41,775 nucleotides of DNA, taken from an uncultured Deferribacteraceae bacterium (GTDB lineage: Bacteria; Chrysiogenota; Deferribacteres; CAMZNJ01). Each line of letters begins with the position of its first letter. Positions within the stretch are counted from its first letter, which is position 1. The stretch is from assembly GCA_947313825.1 (NCBI GenBank), contig CAMZNJ010000040.1, forward strand, positions 1 through 41,775, written 5' to 3'. The position numbers and the translations under genes are program-made. This document shows positions 6,111 through 35,419 of the stretch, in pieces. Below the pieces are notes generated by a model. That model did not search any database. It was not told the DNA's origin and saw only the letters and a list, made by a program, of their open reading frames with translations.

Positions 6111-6125
6111 TGGCACGTTTTTTGC
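6111..6125 (+). promoter_or_regulatory. Sigma-54 (RpoN) promoter
   Basis: TGGCAC (6111-6116), five bases (GTTTT), TTGC (6122-6125). This matches the -24/-12 consensus at every conserved base, with the invariant GG and GC at the correct spacing. Transcription would start near 6137, leaving about 56 bases of leader before the ATG at 6193. No enhancer-binding site could be assigned, and the intergenic space upstream is short. Confidence 0.8.
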
Positions 6126-6192
6126 GTATGAACCATTTGAAGGGCACGGACGTCGTATCGTGGTAATATAATTGCCAACATGGAGGATAATA

Positions 6193-6546
6193 ATGGTAGG
6201 GAACATCAATAGTATTAACAACACTGGCGTAGAGAAGGCTGTCAGCAAGAATAGTGCTAACAAAAGTAGTGGCACCAACCAAGCAACTGAGAACAACCGA
6301 CGAGACGTTGGTAATAATGCTACTCAGGACAGGTCGGACTCCTATGACACAACAACCTTGAAGCGATCAGAGTTAATGGGGTACATCGACAGCCTAAACA
6401 GGGAGAGTCAAGGACAATCCCTCAACCATTCAAAGTTCCAAGACCTTGTGAGTAAGGTTCGCTCAAGCGATACCGAATCATTAATTAAGACCATCGGTGA
6501 TACTTCTAATCTTAGCAAGCTTACTGTTGAGGTAATGGAGTCGTAA
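6193..6546 (+). CDS. Small FlgM-like protein (putative anti-sigma-28 factor)
   Basis: A 117-residue polar protein without membrane segments or cysteines. The start at 6193 is chosen over an upstream in-frame ATG at 6172 because GGAGG sits eight bases before it. The N terminus MVGNINSINNTG resembles the start of many FlgM proteins, followed by a serine/asparagine-rich, probably disordered half and a C-terminal helical half with the segment KFQDLVSKVRSSDTESLIKT. The FlgM C-terminal motif is not clear, so this is suggestive only. A near-perfect sigma-54 promoter and a strong terminator make it a single-gene unit, which would suit a flagellar regulatory protein. Otherwise it is a hypothetical protein. 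Confidence 0.55.
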   Translation: MVGNINSINNTGVEKAVSKNSANKSSGTNQATENNRRDVGNNATQDRSDSYDTTTLKRSELMGYIDSLNRESQGQSLNHSKFQDLVSKVRSSDTESLIKTIGDTSNLSKLTVEVMES

Positions 6547-6574
6547 CCTTTTTTGGTATCAGTATTGCACCTAG

Positions 6575-6628
6575 CACCCATACTTTCGAGGGCAATATTT
6601 GCCCATAGAGGAGAGTGTGGGTGTTTTT
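6575..6628 (+). terminator. Strong two-tier rho-independent terminator
   Basis: A 13-pair outer stem, CACCCATACTTTC (6575-6587) with GAGAGTGTGGGTG (6611-6623), all positions pairing if G-U is allowed, is followed by five T residues (6624-6628). Inside it sits a second perfect hairpin, GGGCAA and TTGCCC (6590-6604). It ends the FlgM-like transcript and works only in the plus direction because the opposite side lacks a T-tract. Confidence 0.88.
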
Positions 6629-6717
6629 GTTCCTAGTGTTGATTGCCCTGAATGTGGCGACGCACTCACGTAACCGCACAGCCATGCAACACGCACTCGC
6701 ACTCCCCTCTTACTGCC

Positions 6718-9396
6718 TTACTGCCTCAGCACAGCGTCATTGTTGTCCGCCAGAGCCTGCACAACTCTGTCCATCCCTTCGCTAAGGTGTGCATCTGTTG
6801 GCGTAGACTCCCCCGCGTTCAGCATAATCCTTATTGTGATGGATCGTTTCCCTTCCAACATTTTTTTGTCGCGATATTCGTCAATCAAATACACGTCCAC
6901 CACTTTCAGTCCGTTCCCTAGTTTGACTTTGGTTATGGTTTGTGCGAGGTCTCCGAAGTGTGTTGTTTCGTCCACTGCCACGGCTATGTCTTTGCGTATG
7001 TCAGGGGTTCTCAGGAATGATTTGAATTTTGATACCCGTTTTTTCATTAGGGATGTTGCAAGGTGTGTGTACATTTCTGCAACAACGACTCCATGGGGTG
7101 CGTCGCATTCTTTGGCAACACTAGGGTGCAGTTCGCCGATGGTGCCTACCACTACCCCTTCTTTCCCCCCTTGGAACTTCCCTTTCAGGATAACGTTGCA
7201 TGCTCGACCGGGGTGCAGGAATTTGGGAGTATTTGTTGTATTGAATTCAACATCAGCTCCGAGTGTTGCGAATACCCTTGTTACTACCCCTTTGAGGACA
7301 AAGAACTGTACTTCAGCTTTTGTATCTTTGTTGGTAAAGGGGTATGAGGCAAAGTGTTCGTCGCCGTATGAGAGTAGTCCTAAACGCGGTTCTTCGTCAA
7401 CCTGCATCCCCTCGCCGTTGTTGGCATTGGTATTGTTTTGCACTGTGCTACTGTCTGCTGTGCTACTGTCTTTACGTGTGTACACGCTTCCGAACTCAAA
7501 CAGCTTCCCCCATCTTACCCCTTGGTTGAAGTTGTTTACAAAGGTTGTTACGAGGTTTGACACCATGGTGGTACGCATTACCTTCATGTCTTCGGATATG
7601 GGGTTACGCAACGTCAACGGTTCCGGTTCGTTGCCGTCTTTCTCGGCAAATAGTGCCACTGTTCCTTTTTTGATGAATGGGTATGTGATAACTTCGAAAA
7701 ACCCTTGATGTATCAATGCACTTGAGATGTTACGACGATCTTGGAACCCTTTCGGCAACGCCGTCGCCTTGGCGAATAGTTTGGGGAGTTTGTTGGGCAG
7801 GTTGTTGATACCGTACATACGCACAACCTCTTCAGCAATATCAGCACTGTAGCGTGCTGTTTCCATTCGGTGATACGGCACCGTTACGGCGTATTGACCA
7901 TTTTCCCGCTCCACACCATACCCAAGCTTTTCCAGATTGGCAGTAATGCGGTCGTGAGTAATATCGTCTGCCCCTAGCAAGGCTGGGATAAAGTTTTCGT
8001 CAAATCGGATAACAGGCTTGGGAGGCAGTGTGAACTCTTGACCGGTATGGTTGCAGTAGGCATACTCAGTGCCATTCGTGCTTAGCAGGGCGATGGCATA
8101 ACGCAACGCCACGTCTGTAGTAGAAAGATCAATACCACGTTCGAACCTATGGGAGGAGTCGGTGGACAGCCCCAAAACCTTGGCACTACGACGCACAAGG
8201 TTTGGCGGGAACACTGCACTTTCCAACAGGATATTCGTTGTGGTTGCGGACACCGAGCCACGTAACCCCCCCATAACTCCCGCAATGGCAATAATCCCCT
8301 TGGCATCAGCTATCACAGGCACGCCAGTAGGCACATTCCGCTCCGCTCCATCCAGCGTTACAACCTGCTCCCCCTCCCCTGAGAGGCGTACGGTAATACC
8401 CCCCTCGATATGGTCGGCATCGAAAGCGTGCATGGGTTGCCCTAGCTCCATCATGACGTAATTCGTTGTGTCAACAATACTATTTATGGGACGAATACCA
8501 CAACCATGCAAACGTGCTTGCACCAACGCAGAAGATTCGCCCACAGATACACCAGTAACCTTAGCAAGAAGATACCTCTCAGCAGCACCATCCTCCACCG
8601 TGTAAGCAGGCACGCCACTAGAAACACTGTGGGACGCCTCAGCCATAGTTGCAATAAGATTGTTGTAGGCATGCACCATGGGTACGCCAAATATGGCGTG
8701 CACCTCGCGTGCCATGCCTCGAATACTCAAACAGTCCCCACGATTTGGCGTTAATCCGATATCCAGCACGGCACCGCCGATACCGTACATCTCTGCCACA
8801 TCCAACCCAAGGGGGATTGTCTCAACGGTGTTGCTGTTGCCACGTGCACCTTGGTGCTGTGCATCTTGGTGCTGTGTGCCTTGGTGCTGTGCATCTTGGT
8901 GCTGTGTTCCTTGGTGCTGTGCATCTTGGTGCTGTGCACCTTGGTGCTGTGTGCCTTGGTGCTGTGTGCCTTGGTGCTGTGTGCCTAGTACCCAGATACC
9001 GTCCTCACTTTCATCCGTAACGGGGAACCCCAGCTCACCTTTGGAACATATCATCCCTTGGGATTCAATACCGCGAATCTTCACTTTACGCAAAACCATT
9101 TCAGGCAGCTTCGCACCGATGGGAGCAAAGGCGATTATCTGCCCAGCGTCAACATTTGGAGCACCGCATACAACGTTGTGTCGTTCTGAACCGTCAAACA
9201 CTACGCATACGGCGAGGGTATCCGCATTAGGGTGCTTCTCCTTACTTTCGACCAGAGCAGTAACCACCCCTTGGCATGGGTATTCGGCAACAGAGTCAAC
9301 CTCGTTCCCACACTCTGAGATTTTGTCCACAAGTTCGTTAAAGGGGATATTTTGCGTATCCACAAAAGAGTTTAGCCATTTAATCGGTACAAGCAT
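6718..9396 (-). CDS. pheT: Phenylalanyl-tRNA synthetase beta subunit with tandem-repeat insert
   Basis: The 892-residue beta subunit of the PheST tetramer, carrying the tRNA-binding, editing (B3/B4), B5 and C-terminal ferredoxin-fold anticodon-binding domains. Recognisable parts in order are the OB-fold tRNA-binding domain (NADTLAVCVV, VVCGAPNVDAGQIIAFAPIGAKLP), then a glutamine/histidine-rich insert, then DIGLTPNRGDCLSIRGMAREV, the B3/B4 editing region with MELGQPMHAFDAD, B5 (FDENFIPALLG), the catalytic-like domain and FLRTPDIRKDIAVAVDE near the C terminus. The family usually has about 800 residues; the excess comes partly from nine five-residue repeats at about residues 138-182. It starts three bases after the pheS stop with its Shine-Dalgarno inside pheS, so it is translationally coupled. 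Confidence 0.95.
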   Translation of the reverse strand: MLVPIKWLNSFVDTQNIPFNELVDKISECGNEVDSVAEYPCQGVVTALVESKEKHPNADTLAVCVVFDGSERHNVVCGAPNVDAGQIIAFAPIGAKLPEMVLRKVKIRGIESQGMICSKGELGFPVTDESEDGIWVLGTQHQGTQHQGTQHQGAQHQDAQHQGTQHQDAQHQGTQHQDAQHQGARGNSNTVETIPLGLDVAEMYGIGGAVLDIGLTPNRGDCLSIRGMAREVHAIFGVPMVHAYNNLIATMAEASHSVSSGVPAYTVEDGAAERYLLAKVTGVSVGESSALVQARLHGCGIRPINSIVDTTNYVMMELGQPMHAFDADHIEGGITVRLSGEGEQVVTLDGAERNVPTGVPVIADAKGIIAIAGVMGGLRGSVSATTTNILLESAVFPPNLVRRSAKVLGLSTDSSHRFERGIDLSTTDVALRYAIALLSTNGTEYAYCNHTGQEFTLPPKPVIRFDENFIPALLGADDITHDRITANLEKLGYGVERENGQYAVTVPYHRMETARYSADIAEEVVRMYGINNLPNKLPKLFAKATALPKGFQDRRNISSALIHQGFFEVITYPFIKKGTVALFAEKDGNEPEPLTLRNPISEDMKVMRTTMVSNLVTTFVNNFNQGVRWGKLFEFGSVYTRKDSSTADSSTVQNNTNANNGEGMQVDEEPRLGLLSYGDEHFASYPFTNKDTKAEVQFFVLKGVVTRVFATLGADVEFNTTNTPKFLHPGRACNVILKGKFQGGKEGVVVGTIGELHPSVAKECDAPHGVVVAEMYTHLATSLMKKRVSKFKSFLRTPDIRKDIAVAVDETTHFGDLAQTITKVKLGNGLKVVDVYLIDEYRDKKMLEGKRSITIRIMLNAGESTPTDAHLSEGMDRVVQALADNNDAVLRQ
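8851..8985 (-). repeat. In-frame 15-bp tandem repeat inside pheT
   Basis: Nine perfect-length 15-bp units, read on the plus strand as TTGGTGCTGTGCATC or TTGGTGCTGTGTGCC with changes only in the last five bases. In the pheT frame each encodes Q-H-Q plus G-T, D-A or G-A. The array falls in the loop between the OB-fold tRNA-binding domain and the next conserved block (SNTVETIPLG), a surface loop in known PheT structures, so length change would be tolerated. The copies are nearly identical, implying recent expansion. Confidence 0.95.
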
Positions 9397-29102: not shown

Positions 29103-29129
29103 TAAACTTACGATTTTTCTTGCCGATTT
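29103..29129 (+). promoter_or_regulatory. Sigma-28 (FliA) promoter of fliD
   Basis: TAAA (29103-29106), exactly 15 bases, GCCGATTT (29122-29129). The flagellar sigma-28 consensus is TAAA-N15-GCCGATAA, so six of eight -10 bases and all four -35 bases match at the correct spacing. The leader would be about 195 bases. Confidence 0.75.
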
Positions 29130-29335: not shown

Positions 29336-32300
29336 ATGAGAGACTTAGCCATCGGTGGACTAGCTTCAGGACTACCTACAAACGACATTGTCGACGCTTA
29401 CGCTGCCTCCCTAAATATCCCCATTGATGCCGCCAACAAACAGGTCGACCTCCTCAAACTCCGACAAGACATCTACCGCGACCTCAACAAAAAAATGCAG
29501 GCATTCAAAAACAACCTCATCGACCTCAACCTCGCGGCAACATTCAATAGCAAACTCTCCACCAACTCCAACCCCAGCGTACTCTCGTTTATACCAAGTG
29601 CCACAACACCAATCGGAAGCTACCGCTTTGACGTACTACAACTCGCCGAACCCGCCCGTGCATCCTCCATATTCACCACAGGATACCTCTCCTACAAAGG
29701 AGCAAACGTCAACAGTGCCGCCGGTCGACCAACAATGTACGACCAAGTTGAAGGTCGCCACAATATTAGCATTCAAGACCTTGGACACTTCGACGGAACA
29801 GGTGGCTCAGGGGGCGGCGGATCTACTGATGCCACCCACAAAGTTTCTCCGTTTACCCAAACAGATGCCCAAGCCATCAAATACATTGCCGAAGTGCCCA
29901 TCGATCCGGGTGGCGGAGGTAGCTCCAATCCCGACTACGACGTTTATGTCGGCTCATCAGTTATGCCGGGATACGCCAGTGATGGCACGTACGATCCCAA
30001 TGCCACAGGGAAATACGTCAACAAAGAGATGCACGTCGGACTCCCCGACGGCTCAGGCGGATACTCAAACCTCAAAATAGTAAGTTTTGGCTCCCAAGGT
30101 ACCGTTCTGCAAGACGATCTCAAAGACCTCGCACGAAAAATAAATGCAGTACTCCAAACCGATGGGCAAACAACTGGTAGCCCCATTGAAGTTGATGCCA
30201 TCTGGGACACCGATGCCAATGGCTGGAGACTTGTCATAACCGACACAACTCCCGGTGCCGACAAAATGGACTTCAGCTTGCAAGCCCTCAGCTATGGAGG
30301 CGACTTCGGTGTTGACGAAATCGGATCAGACACCTACACACCGCCCACCGAACAAAAAGAGGTAAACCTTTACCAACGATTTATGTTCGCGAACATGAGC
30401 TCCTTCAACCTTGACGCCAATGTTGATGCCGACCCCGACCTTGACGACGGTGTTGTATCTGCCGACAAAAGCCTAAGCTACTCATTTAGCATGGACGTGG
30501 AAACTATCCCGCCAACAGTGCCTGCCACAATCCAAAGCGTCAACATCAGCATTAATTTCGACATCAAAAAAGACGAAACCGCAAACGACGTCATGGCAAA
30601 AATGACCAACGCCATGAACGACGCCATCAACACCCAAATGGGCACCAGTGATGTCAAATACTTTGTGCCCGCTGTTGAACGTGAAGGTACGGAATTCAAA
30701 CTCGGGCTCTACGGCGGAAGCTCACAATACAAAATAACCAACCTCAACGAAAGCACAAACCTACTCGGCGGTATTAATCGCACCGAATACATCGACTCAC
30801 TCCCTGTTAACCACTTTGTGGAGTATATTCCGGGATCAGGCGGTGGCGGTGTTGACGATGGCGGTGTTTCTGCGGGCGACGTTTGGATCGCCAAGGATAT
30901 CTTCGAATTTGAAGACGGCAAAGTTGTTACCAAGCACACCAACGGACTCTCCGTGGACACAAGGTATATCGATACATGGGGGCGTGTTGCTTTCCCTGGC
31001 GGTGCATCGTCAGCATCGGAGCCCATCGAGTTTATCATCGACGGGGTAACACTTCCACCAATATATATCGACCTCGAACCAGGATACACCCTAACTGAAG
31101 TACTCTCAGACATTGAAGACAAACTCAACGACCAAATAAATAACTTATACCAAACCGGCTCCATGCAATACGTTGCCCTCAAGGCAGAACGCGATGCCAC
31201 CTCGGGGGAATGGACAATTGCCACCTACGACGTTTCAGGCAAAGACCTCACCATTGCTGCCTCCCTTGACGATCCACTTGGCAGCGATGCCCTCGCACTC
31301 GCCCTCGGATTCGGCAACATCTCCACCAACAAAACACAAACCATGGTCAACATGATTGCCGAAAAATCAGCACGCAACCTCGAATTACGCCTTGGTGCAG
31401 GCATATCAGGCACAGACGACGACCCCAGCTTCTCCCATGGCACAGGTGCCGACGGGTTCTACCTATTCAACGCCAAAAATGCAGCCTTAATTCGCAATGT
31501 TGGATTTGCAACACCAAACTTCGCCACTGATGACCACTCTAGCGACCCCGCCAACTCCCTGAAAGAGGGGGGCTTCGTTTACGAAACCACATCGCGACCT
31601 GGGGATCTCGGTACAAAAAAATCTGTTTACACAAGTGGCGACAAAATATTTGACCCATCTGCCCTTGCTGGCTCAAGTTACAAAGAGATTCTCAACGGTC
31701 GAACCATTGCCGACCTTGTCAACAACGGCTTCTTCAACAGTAGCGTAACCAACGACAAACTGTTCTCATTCGAAGAAACAGAGCCCATAGACACCAACGG
31801 CGACGGCATACTCGACGGCACCAAGGTTCTCTACAATTACGGCATCCTCGAAATCAACGATGTCCAAATAAAAATACGGGACAACATGACCCTTTCCGAG
31901 ATGATGGGGCTCGTCAACTCCAACCCTGCCCTCGATATCGACATGTACTACGACGAAAATGCCGAGAAATTTACCATCAACTCCCCCAACGGCAAACCTG
32001 TACGGATGACTGGCGACTCTACTGTTGGTGCCTTCAACGACCTACTCAACATGCGTTCCGACCGTGGTGCCCAATTTATCCAAGGCTTCACATCACCAAA
32101 ACTTGACGCCGGCAACACCCTAAACAACGTATTGCCCGGCTTTTCCAAAGGTATCTTCACCATCAACGACGTTAGCATCTACTACGATCCATCAACCGAC
32201 ACCCTAAACGACGTAATGAACAGGGTCAACAAATCCAATGCCAACGTTATCATGTCGTTCAATTCTGGCACACAGTCCATCGAAATCCGATCCACTGACG

Positions 32301-33307
32301 GCACCGACCTCATCAAAATCGGCTCAGACCACGATACCAAAGCCGGCAACTTCCTCGAAATCATGAACCTCACAACCAATGCCAACAACCCCATCTACCT
32401 CGGCAGCACAGGACATGGTGCGGAATTCGACCTCAACGGCATTCGCTACACCTCAGAAACCAACAACCTAGAGGACATCATCGAAGGTGCAAGCATCACC
32501 CTTTACAGCGAAGGCATTACAGTGGTGGACGTAACCGTGGACACTGAACCAACCATAGACGCAATGGCATCGTTTGTCGCCAACTACAACGACATCATGA
32601 CCTACCTCACTGCCGACACTGGCGAACGCAAACGACTCGAACAATACAAAAACCCACTCTCAAGCCAAGACGCCGCATCCATGAGCGACAAAGAGATCGA
32701 ATCCTACAAAGAAAACTGGAAAAAATACCACACCGCTGACATCATACTCAGTGAAGCCACCATGAGATCCATTCGTACCAAAATGCGTACACTCGTCGGG
32801 AGCGAAGTCAAAGGCACAAGTGGACTAAACTTCCTGTCCGACTTCGACATCAGAATCATCGGCACAGGCGACAGCTTCGACGCCAACCTACTCCAAAAAG
32901 GACTACTCATGGAGGATACCACCGATATCGACCAAATCAAAAAACTACTGGAAAAAAACGACTCCTTCATGAACCTCGCAAAATTTGCACCCAACGCACT
33001 GCACCAATTCTTCTCTGAAGTAGAAACTATCGGCACAAACTCCCGCGATATCGGACTCTCACGACTCTACAACACCTACATCACCAACACAACATCGTTC
33101 ACAGGACCCATACAATCCAAAATAAAAACTAACGGCTCAATCGACAAACACCTCGCTCAACTTTACGAAAGCATCGAAACAATATCAAGACGCAACGAAC
33201 AAGCACTACGATCCCTCTCCGAAAGGTTTGTCAACATGGAGCTACGCGTCTCACAGCTACAATCACAATCCAACTACCTTGCACAACAACTAAATATTGG
33301 AGGTTAA
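29336..33307 (+). CDS. fliD: Flagellar filament cap protein FliD (very large)
   Basis: The distal cap that guides flagellin assembly. N- and C-terminal FliD domains are clear: MRDLAIGGLASGLPTNDIVDAYAA with the amphipathic helices up to residue 90, and near the end GAEFDLNGIRYTSETNNLEDIIEGASITLY followed by the closing coiled coil (ISRRNEQALRSLSERFVNMELRVSQLQ). With 1323 residues it is two to three times the usual 450-700. The extra central part contains at least five flagellin_IN-like beta segments (for example GIFTINDVSIYYDPSTDTLNDVMNRVNK), glycine-rich linkers (GGSGGGG, GGGGSS, GSGGGG) and one calcium-loop-like DTNGDGILDG. Coding sequence is strongly C/A-rich. GAGGG precedes the ATG by about nine bases. 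Confidence 0.93.
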   Translation: MRDLAIGGLASGLPTNDIVDAYAASLNIPIDAANKQVDLLKLRQDIYRDLNKKMQAFKNNLIDLNLAATFNSKLSTNSNPSVLSFIPSATTPIGSYRFDVLQLAEPARASSIFTTGYLSYKGANVNSAAGRPTMYDQVEGRHNISIQDLGHFDGTGGSGGGGSTDATHKVSPFTQTDAQAIKYIAEVPIDPGGGGSSNPDYDVYVGSSVMPGYASDGTYDPNATGKYVNKEMHVGLPDGSGGYSNLKIVSFGSQGTVLQDDLKDLARKINAVLQTDGQTTGSPIEVDAIWDTDANGWRLVITDTTPGADKMDFSLQALSYGGDFGVDEIGSDTYTPPTEQKEVNLYQRFMFANMSSFNLDANVDADPDLDDGVVSADKSLSYSFSMDVETIPPTVPATIQSVNISINFDIKKDETANDVMAKMTNAMNDAINTQMGTSDVKYFVPAVEREGTEFKLGLYGGSSQYKITNLNESTNLLGGINRTEYIDSLPVNHFVEYIPGSGGGGVDDGGVSAGDVWIAKDIFEFEDGKVVTKHTNGLSVDTRYIDTWGRVAFPGGASSASEPIEFIIDGVTLPPIYIDLEPGYTLTEVLSDIEDKLNDQINNLYQTGSMQYVALKAERDATSGEWTIATYDVSGKDLTIAASLDDPLGSDALALALGFGNISTNKTQTMVNMIAEKSARNLELRLGAGISGTDDDPSFSHGTGADGFYLFNAKNAALIRNVGFATPNFATDDHSSDPANSLKEGGFVYETTSRPGDLGTKKSVYTSGDKIFDPSALAGSSYKEILNGRTIADLVNNGFFNSSVTNDKLFSFEETEPIDTNGDGILDGTKVLYNYGILEINDVQIKIRDNMTLSEMMGLVNSNPALDIDMYYDENAEKFTINSPNGKPVRMTGDSTVGAFNDLLNMRSDRGAQFIQGFTSPKLDAGNTLNNVLPGFSKGIFTINDVSIYYDPSTDTLNDVMNRVNKSNANVIMSFNSGTQSIEIRSTDGTDLIKIGSDHDTKAGNFLEIMNLTTNANNPIYLGSTGHGAEFDLNGIRYTSETNNLEDIIEGASITLYSEGITVVDVTVDTEPTIDAMASFVANYNDIMTYLTADTGERKRLEQYKNPLSSQDAASMSDKEIESYKENWKKYHTADIILSEATMRSIRTKMRTLVGSEVKGTSGLNFLSDFDIRIIGTGDSFDANLLQKGLLMEDTTDIDQIKKLLEKNDSFMNLAKFAPNALHQFFSEVETIGTNSRDIGLSRLYNTYITNTTSFTGPIQSKIKTNGSIDKHLAQLYESIETISRRNEQALRSLSERFVNMELRVSQLQSQSNYLAQQLNIGG

Positions 33308-33466
33308 CTTATTGTACTATTGGACGATAGGTAATAACAAGAGTAATACATGGTCGCAACAATAGCATAACCCAGAATAGCCCAGCATAACCCAAGACAA
33401 CCATGAATATACCACAACAGGGTACCATCCTACCAAAACCCTATGAGCATGGAGCGGATCAAACCT

Positions 33467-34102
33467 ATGAGCACAGCAAATTACGCCAAAAACTACCTCC
33501 GAAACGCCGTGGAAGGTGCCTCAAACGGCACAATACTCGTAATGCTATTCGACGGACTTGTGAAATTCATCAACCTCTCCATCAAACATGTTGATGACAA
33601 AAATATTCAAGAAGCTCACAACTACATTATCCGCTCACAAGATATTGTCTACGAACTACTCTCTTCACTAGACAGAGAAGCTGGCGGCGAAATGGCAGAC
33701 AACCTCGCAAGCCTCTACGACTACGTCATCCGCAAACTCGAAAAAGCAAATATTGAGAAAAATACTGCTCACCTAAGCGACGTTCTCGACATCATCCAAC
33801 CATTGCGTACCACATGGAGAGAAGTGGTGGCACAGGAAGAAGCAAAAGTGGGCAAACCAACACCTACAACTGCTGCCACCGCAAGCATTAGTGGCAACAA
33901 ACCCACAACAAACACCAACGAACAAACTAATACCGAACAACCCACAACACCGAACAGTGAGCCACGCCAACCAATAAACACACCTAATCAATACGGTGCC
34001 TATGCTCGACCCCAAAAACAAACCAACATCAAGGCAACCGAAACACCCGACCTGAGACCCAACAACAACAAGGGTACCTCTAGCCTCGATATTTCCGGCT
34101 AA
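33467..34102 (+). CDS. fliS: Flagellar secretion chaperone FliS with disordered tail
   Basis: FliS binds flagellin in the cytosol before export. The first 130 residues (from the ATG at 33467) match the family: NYLRNAVEGASNGTILVMLFDGLVKFINLSIKHVDD, an N-terminal cap and four helices, including DNLASLYDYVIRKLEKANIEKN. The further 80 residues are a Thr/Asn/Pro/Gln-rich tail (TNTNEQTNTEQPTTPNSE) absent in ordinary FliS. An upstream in-frame ATG (33443) adds eight residues, but GGAG lies within that extension, supporting 33467. It follows fliD by about 160 bases and is probably on the same transcript. Confidence 0.92.
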   Translation: MSTANYAKNYLRNAVEGASNGTILVMLFDGLVKFINLSIKHVDDKNIQEAHNYIIRSQDIVYELLSSLDREAGGEMADNLASLYDYVIRKLEKANIEKNTAHLSDVLDIIQPLRTTWREVVAQEEAKVGKPTPTTAATASISGNKPTTNTNEQTNTEQPTTPNSEPRQPINTPNQYGAYARPQKQTNIKATETPDLRPNNNKGTSSLDISG

Positions 34103-34129: not shown

Positions 34130-35419
34130 ATGGCAGGCAACTCTTACGGACGCAATTTCCGCATCACAACTTTCGGCGAAAGCCACGGACACGCTCTAGG
34201 CGTCATCGTTGACGGGTGTCCTGCAGGGCTCCACATCGACACACAATACATACAAAAACAACTCAACAAACGACGACCCGGCATAAAACCGTTCGAAACT
34301 CCACGACACGAAAAAGATGCGGTGGAAATTGTTTCCGGAATTTTCGAAGGCAAAACCCTCGGAACACCAATAACAATGATCATCCGAAACAACGACCACA
34401 ATAGCAACGACTACAAACACCTGAAAAATACGTTCAGAACAGGACACGCCGACTACACATACCAACTAAAATACAACCACCGCGACCACCGTGGTGGCGG
34501 ACGAGCATCCGCAAGGGAAACCATCGGACGAGTTGCTGGCGGGGCAGTCGCACTCAAAATACTGGCTCAGCACGGCGTTTCTATTTGCGGATACGTTGTT
34601 GGCGTAGGGGAAGCTTGTGCAACCATCGACCCAACTGAAGGGGCACACATGGTGGATTTCGACTTTGTTCACAGCGACCAAAATACAATCAAAGCACCAC
34701 GACCACACGACTACAACACCATGATGGCCGCACTAGAGCACGCATGCCAAAATGGGCACAGTATCGGTGGCGTTGTGGAAGTCTCAATCTCAGGGCTAAA
34801 GGGGGGGGTTGGCGAACCTGTGTTCCGAAAGCTCAATAGCCAACTAGCAGGTGCTATCATGTCCATACCGGCCGTAACGGGCATCGAATTTGGACTCGGA
34901 TTTCAATTTGGACATATGACCAGCAAAGACGTGGATACCCTCATTAGTAAGGGCAACAATACACGCAATAATCCGCCATCACCGCCAAATATATATGGTG
35001 GCATACAAGGGGGTATCTCCAACGGCGGAACGATTATTTTGAGGTACAGCATCAAAGCCCCGTCATCACTGCTCAAGGAGAACGCCACTCTAAGCAACGC
35101 CAGCACCACGGGTGCGAACACCACGGGTGCCAGCACCTCTAACGCGAACACCAACGTGGGAATTGGTGGTCGCCACGACTGCTTTGTTGGTAGCCGTAGC
35201 ACCACGGGTGCCAGCACCTCTAACGCGAACACCACGGGTGCGAACACCACGGGTGCGAACACCACGGGTGCGAGCACCACGCGCGCGAGCACCCCGAACG
35301 CCAGCGCAACGGACGCCAGCGCCCCGAACGCCAGCGCCACGAACGCCAGCACCTCTAACGCGAACACCATGGGTGCCAGCCCTTCACGCAACCGCATGCG
35401 TGCAAGGTTCTCCCGCTAA
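34130..35419 (+). CDS. aroC: Chorismate synthase with repeat-remodelled C terminus
   Basis: Makes chorismate from EPSP using reduced FMN, the last shared step of aromatic synthesis. Residues 1-325 are complete and typical: FGESHGHALGVIVDGCPAG with the catalytic histidine, RPGIKPFETPRHEKDAVEIVSGIFEGKTLGTPI, RTGHADYTYQLKYNHRDHRGGGRASARETIGRVAGGA and GGIQGGISNGGTIILRYSIKAPSSL. After that, tandem 15-bp repeats encode SN/GA/TT units. GRHD of the conserved GRHDPC motif survives at residues 347-350, but the usual C-terminal helix (VVEAM and so on) is absent and replaced by about 65 repeat residues. Activity is therefore uncertain. The stop overlaps the atpC stop on the other strand. Confidence 0.9.
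   Translation: MAGNSYGRNFRITTFGESHGHALGVIVDGCPAGLHIDTQYIQKQLNKRRPGIKPFETPRHEKDAVEIVSGIFEGKTLGTPITMIIRNNDHNSNDYKHLKNTFRTGHADYTYQLKYNHRDHRGGGRASARETIGRVAGGAVALKILAQHGVSICGYVVGVGEACATIDPTEGAHMVDFDFVHSDQNTIKAPRPHDYNTMMAALEHACQNGHSIGGVVEVSISGLKGGVGEPVFRKLNSQLAGAIMSIPAVTGIEFGLGFQFGHMTSKDVDTLISKGNNTRNNPPSPPNIYGGIQGGISNGGTIILRYSIKAPSSLLKENATLSNASTTGANTTGASTSNANTNVGIGGRHDCFVGSRSTTGASTSNANTTGANTTGANTTGASTTRASTPNASATDASAPNASATNASTSNANTMGASPSRNRMRARFSR
35090..35394 (+). repeat. 15-bp in-frame tandem repeats in aroC
   Basis: Units such as GGTGCGAACACCACG, AACGCCAGCGCCACG and AGCACCTCTAACGCG, all in register with the aroC frame. A 33-bp block is present twice (35120-35152 and 35201-35233, 81 bp apart), flanking the conserved GRHDCFVGSR-coding segment, so the array occurs on both sides of it. 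Confidence 0.93.

Follow-up and report, generated by a model that had tools for sequence, protein, structure and literature searches.

A conserved single-gene sigma-54 unit encodes an orphan protein distinct from FlgM in shrimp-gut Deferribacterota

What is the small polar protein encoded behind a sigma-54 promoter at position 6111 of this DNA, and is it the brake on sigma-28? The first-pass annotation had read its N terminus as FlgM-like and suggested that P0001, if an anti-sigma-28 factor, would place that brake under sigma-54. We revisited this reading for the window, that is, the whole analysed stretch of 41,775 nucleotides. The window corresponds to contig 40 in a draft genome of 1.26 Mb with 66 contigs and 86% completeness. 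The window has a G+C content of 47.5%. Deferribacteres from the midgut of Rimicaris exoculata, which were placed in a candidate family of their own, Microvillispirillaceae, have 46.7–47.6% G+C, genomes of 1.25–1.36 Mb and more than 30 flagellar genes (PMC9636832). The window very probably stems from that lineage.

Results

One gene between a sigma-54 promoter and a terminator

The locus comprises five features, given with their window coordinates and strand:

6111..6126, plus strand: sigma-54 (-24/-12) promoter TGGCACGTTTTTTGCG; exact match, kept in the sister species, with rpoN and GAFTGA activators in the genome
6136..6138, plus strand: predicted transcription start, placed by sigma-54 promoter geometry about 12 bases past the -12 GC
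6183..6187, plus strand: ribosome binding site GGAGG, from sequence; conserved in the sister species
6193..6546, plus strand: gene of a 117-aa orphan protein, here called P0001; from translation, ortholog and dN/dS
6573..6631, plus strand: intrinsic terminator, a 15-pair stem with an inner hairpin, followed by TTTTTGTT; fold -35.2 kcal/mol, z -4.1

The sequence TGGCACGTTTTTTGC at 6111–6125 has the form TGGCAC-N5-TTGC and is the sole exact -24/-12 match within the window. The chance expectation for such a match in the window is 0.16, and at least one occurred in 16 of 100 shuffles, so the occurrence in the window is by itself not decisive. Three things make the promoter convincing: a gene follows it, the sister species conserves it and it has peers throughout the genome. 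The sister species carries the form TGGCACATTTTTTGCG, and the 24 promoter columns are 92% identical between the two species, versus about 71–72% on each flank. The sequence features expected of a sigma-54-dependent gene are present: the GG and GC of the -24/-12 elements are correctly spaced, and rpoN and a GAFTGA activator are encoded. Judged by these sequence criteria, the promoter is real, as the first-pass annotation had claimed, but its distance to the ATG at 6193 is 67 bases and not 56.

The proposed polar reading frame of 117 residues was likewise confirmed, together with its GGAGG. The only relative found to carry P0001 is the shrimp-gut symbiont of the same genus M_Rainbow_MAG_00001 (G001, our sister species), whose ortholog on CAMZNS010000024.1 is 80% identical. 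Over the whole gene, dN is 0.108 and dS 0.930 (dN/dS about 0.12), and P0001 is therefore a real protein. By part, dN/dS is 0.064 for residues 51–117 and 0.21 for residues 1–50. The terminator arms and the T-run are preserved in the sister species as well, and an Rfam scan of the locus was empty. The predicted tail domain of P0001 is thus, on these comparisons, the constrained part of a real single-gene unit. Its neighbours are unrelated (a DJ-1/PfpI family gene and pheT), and fliD lies 23 kb away.

An orphan protein with a predicted disordered head and helical tail

Residues 1–57 of P0001 are 77% polar, charged or glycine (11 Asn, 7 Ser and 7 Thr) and are predicted to be disordered. The conserved residues 58–117 are predicted to be helical at 58–72, 79–91, 94–101 and 105–116, according to a low-confidence AlphaFold model (pLDDT 51). 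The model was built from two sequences and is too poor for a fold search; a structure search with it gave no significant fold match. A signal peptide, a haem motif and a membrane segment are all absent from the sequence.

An alignment query of 58 other genomes, 46 of them from the same class, found no homologue outside the genus. The best matches there (E 0.07–2) lay inside longer frames, for example that of a sugar-nucleotide epimerase, and were judged to be noise. Small sigma-54-led reading frames of five other families, read for a positional counterpart, included none resembling P0001. So far, the unit is known from these genome searches only in a Deferribacterota genus of deep-sea vent shrimp guts.

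Scans of Pfam and NCBIfam returned nothing for P0001 beyond the type III inner-rod protein YscI at E 0.22. This match bears on another possible role, in which P0001 would be a substrate of flagellar type III export with a target on the shrimp gut outside the cell, or would form a minor part of the rod or hook. The disordered, Asn/Ser/Thr-rich N terminus and the host restriction of the genus would suit such a role, and the export of non-flagellar proteins via the flagellum is known in Campylobacter (PMC2764114). However, the inner-rod matches (YscI and, at E 6.8, PDB 8axk) are at noise level, and flgB, flgC, fliE, flgF and flgG are already present, which leads us to regard this role as unlikely. 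P0001 was also rejected as FliE, since fliE already follows flgB-flgC.

The sigma-54 regulon is largely but not purely flagellar

The genome encodes one RpoN (PF04552, E 2e-52) and one FliA over the cut-off. It also encodes two strong sigma-54 activators of the response-regulator type, both with GAFTGA (PF00158, E 7e-74 and 4e-68): one is FlgR/FlrC-like and stands beside a histidine kinase, the other is NtrX-like. The genome contains 35 occurrences of the pattern TGGCAY-N5-TTGC versus one of the reversed control, and the sister species 29 versus 4; many occurrences are intragenic, and these regulon counts come from pattern searches and individual stretches, with part of the sites read in context.

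About ten intergenic sites are common to both genomes. Three of them head flagellar operons, namely flgB-flgC-fliE, lipoprotein-flgF-flgG and flgI-flgJ-flgM, and P0001 thus shares its promoter class with the rod and ring operons. Another lies upstream of a FliK-like gene, which was read from a partial stretch without Pfam confirmation. Further shared sites stand before lpxC, another lipoprotein gene, gltX, a multiheme-cytochrome gene and a conserved stretch lacking a reading frame. Since conserved sites precede both flagellar and other genes, the predicted regulon is largely but not purely flagellar.

This mixed membership raises the question of whether P0001 belongs to the other sigma-54 branch, that of the NtrX-like activator, and serves envelope or redox metabolism as lpxC and the cytochrome gene would. 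A second response-regulator activator does exist in the genome, and sigma-54-type sites ahead of lpxC and multiheme-cytochrome genes recur in several families of the class. Against this stand the missing signal peptide, haem motif and membrane segment of P0001, and a makeup that resembles flagellar export substrates, so that its membership in the NtrX branch appears doubtful.

The sites outside the flagellar operons showed patterns of their own. For lpxC, the first committed gene of lipid A synthesis, a sigma-54-type site was seen 28–137 bases upstream in five families of the class (L019 in this genome, L138 in the sister species, L143 in G005, L160 in G013, L161 in G025 and L226 in G021; the name lpxC comes from the N-terminal sequence rather than from a family scan). 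Multiheme cytochrome-like genes stand behind such sites in this genome (L096) and in G013 (L145), G005 (L180) and G009 (L191). One conserved site, TGGCATGAGTCTTGC (G000:C43:3046-3060, minus strand, L131; sister species G001:C29:32394-32408, minus strand, L129), is followed by about 115 bases that are near-identical between the species and form two stable hairpins (about -30 kcal/mol). This stretch contains no conserved reading frame, and neither Rfam nor tRNA scans gave a match in it; it may encode a small RNA driven by sigma-54, or form the long leader of a gene about 490 bases downstream.

P0001 is not FlgM, and the canonical flgM has its own sigma-54 site

The N terminus of P0001 had been described as FlgM-like. 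We found no profile support for this in Pfam, in NCBIfam, in a PF04316 search or in profile comparison; what P0001 has in common with exported proteins of the flagellum, the FlgJ of the same genome among them, is only a short Asn/Ser/Thr-rich look (SINNT). A Pfam scan of P0001 up to E 10 returned no FlgM (PF04316 cut-off 25 bits). When 50 related genomes were searched with PF04316, FlgM was found above the cut-off in 44 of them, and neither P0001 nor its ortholog was matched at E up to 1. The single FlgM of this genome lies at C59:600-752 on the minus strand (E 9e-14), within a 106-aa protein, and its gene is the third of flgI-flgJ-flgM on contig 59. Comparison of 31 Deferribacterota FlgM sequences of this class with P0001 and its ortholog (hhalign) gave a probability of 0.1%. 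The C-terminal motif, which the first-pass annotation had found unclear, is indeed absent from P0001: the sigma-28-binding signature I.nGtY....iA.k is present in the genome's own FlgM and its relatives. At the level of sequence and profile, the reading of P0001 as FlgM fails; a lack of FlgM similarity was one of the two observations that the first-pass annotation had named as refuting it. The alternative offered there, a new flagellar regulator, may apply.

P0001 could also be imagined as an additional FlgM that has diverged and binds sigma-28. Both proteins have about the same length, a polar and flexible head and a helical tail, and the genome's own flgM also has a sigma-54 promoter. Yet PF04316 and the profile comparison separate the two, the NGTY signature absent from P0001 is present in the real FlgM, and the sister species has a canonical FlgM too. 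A diverged FlgM is thus extremely improbable.

If P0001 is not the brake, does sigma-54 control the brake at all? The operon flgI-flgJ-flgM is headed by a perfect sigma-54 site, TGGCACGCTAATTGCT, 100 bases upstream of flgI (TGGCACACTAATTGCT in the sister species), and no good match to a FliA promoter was seen ahead of flgM in this genome. For the sigma-28 side, the window holds the following features:

29103..29129, plus strand: sigma-28 promoter TAAA-N15-GCCGATTT ahead of fliD; exact consensus match
29336..33307, plus strand: fliD, 1323 aa (PF07195, E 3e-22; PF02465, E 9e-15)
33443..34102, plus strand: fliS (PF02561, E 6e-36)

The sigma-28 promoter claimed for fliD is thus present, 206 bases ahead of the gene, and FliD was confirmed by Pfam. 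The claim that sigma-54 controls the sigma-28 brake probably holds for the lineage, through the flgI-flgJ-flgM site, but not for P0001. In this genome, such control is probably exerted through the canonical flgM, and a cascade from sigma-54 to sigma-28 with a sigma-54-driven brake is likely its layout. Campylobacter jejuni transcribes flgM together with the RpoN-dependent flgI and flgJ (PMC11187230). The arrangement here is similar, with a sigma-54 promoter ahead of flgI, flgJ and flgM in this order, but the real brake lies on another contig and is not P0001. A tempting misreading is thereby corrected: the sigma-54-controlled brake probably exists and is the canonical gene, as in Campylobacter.

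A sigma-54 site stands immediately before flgM itself in three other families (L149 in G009, L153 in G005 and L218 in G021). FliD, at 1323 aa, is far longer than usual, with about 900 residues outside both flanking N- and C-terminal FliD domains.

A weak similarity to the phage protein AsiA

Is P0001 then an anti-sigma factor of another kind? Its tail could be a bacterial relative of, or a convergent match to, the C-terminal part of T4 AsiA; P0001 would bind a sigma factor or RNA polymerase and, while the flagellum is assembled, steer the polymerase from one sigma factor to another. AsiA was the top PHROG match (phrog_1166, E 0.032 for P0001 and 0.0075 for the ortholog), and in a single-sequence search of all PDB chains it was the sole match, ungapped, at E 1 (residues 56–101 versus 28–73). 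With our own profile, built from 14 AsiA sequences of diverse phages, P0001 scored 14.0 bits and the ortholog 16.0 bits, scores that none of 5,000 shuffles of each reached (best shuffles 13.9 and 11.5 bits, respectively). The two proteins ranked first among 1,047 ORFs, but the next one, an unrelated Deferribacterota ORF, scored 11.2 bits.

Four libraries had been searched, so the match is not significant after correction. Furthermore, the profile-profile probability was only 9% (hhalign), and the structure search with the P0001 model does not return AsiA. AsiA grips sigma-70 via three helices in residues 10–42, chiefly helix 1 (E10–F21) with I17 as the linchpin (PMC2988021). While residues 57–100 of P0001 align with AsiA 29–72 almost without gaps, and AsiA and, by prediction, the P0001 tail are both helical, helix 1 with its sigma contacts has no counterpart in P0001: the match starts at AsiA residue 28–29, and in register the contacts E10, V14, I17, L18, K20 and F21 correspond to D, N, Q, D, S and D (P0001 residues 38–49). 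We therefore consider both the kinship or convergence with AsiA and the regulatory role drawn from it very improbable, and treat the similarity as a lead at most. Were it true, sigma-54 would switch on a second, non-FlgM regulator of the anti-sigma type in the flagellar cascade of the symbiont.

Discussion

Our preferred, tentative reading, which may quite possibly be correct, is that P0001 serves flagellar assembly as an accessory adaptor or regulator and is encoded by a genus-restricted, single-gene sigma-54 unit of the middle flagellar class. Once the early flagellar base is built, a kinase-regulator pair of the FlgS/FlgR type would activate sigma-54 polymerase at 6111, and the rod, ring and flgI-flgJ-flgM operons would be switched on together with P0001. 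The transcript would cover P0001 alone and end at 6573–6631. Its product would be small and soluble. The disordered head, rich in Asn, Ser and Thr, would resemble those of flagellar type III export substrates, and the conserved helical tail would serve as a partner-binding domain. P0001 would thus be made at the same stage as FlgM, from which it is distinct.

The exact promoter and the terminator, both conserved between the species around one gene, support this flagellar reading, as do the strongest selection on residues 51–117, the shared sites ahead of flagellar operons and the presence of RpoN, FliA and two activators. Against it stand the conserved sigma-54 sites at lpxC, cytochrome and lipoprotein genes and at a possible non-coding RNA, along with the unrelated neighbours, the lack of a homologue of known function and the poor fold model. 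In polar flagellates, a pair of the FlgS/FlgR type activates the sigma-54-dependent genes of the rod and hook once the export gate and the MS ring have been built (PMC7064773); by analogy, we infer that this scheme would apply here.

Comparable genes are known elsewhere. HP1076 of Helicobacter depends on RpoN and binds FliS, and loss of the gene leaves flagellation and motility without a defect (PMC7248283). For Cj0428 of Campylobacter, sigma-54 control is predicted and no function is known (PMC4626219). Both resemble P0001 in their known or predicted sigma-54 dependence, restricted distribution and unclear role, but they belong to a different phylum and have no demonstrated homology to it. 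With P0001, one more orphan gene joins the sigma-54 set of an animal symbiont that is uncultured, has a reduced genome and retains its flagellar genes. It also provides a defined protein for tests of flagellar export, FliS binding or polymerase binding.

Two other genes of the window carry repeats. PheT (pheT, 6718–9396, minus strand) contains a low-complexity tract of GTQHQ/DAQHQ repeats, with a different repeat (THTHD) at the equivalent place in the sister species. The chorismate synthase-like protein of the aroC-like gene (34130–35419, plus strand) has TTGAS/SNAN repeats at its end.
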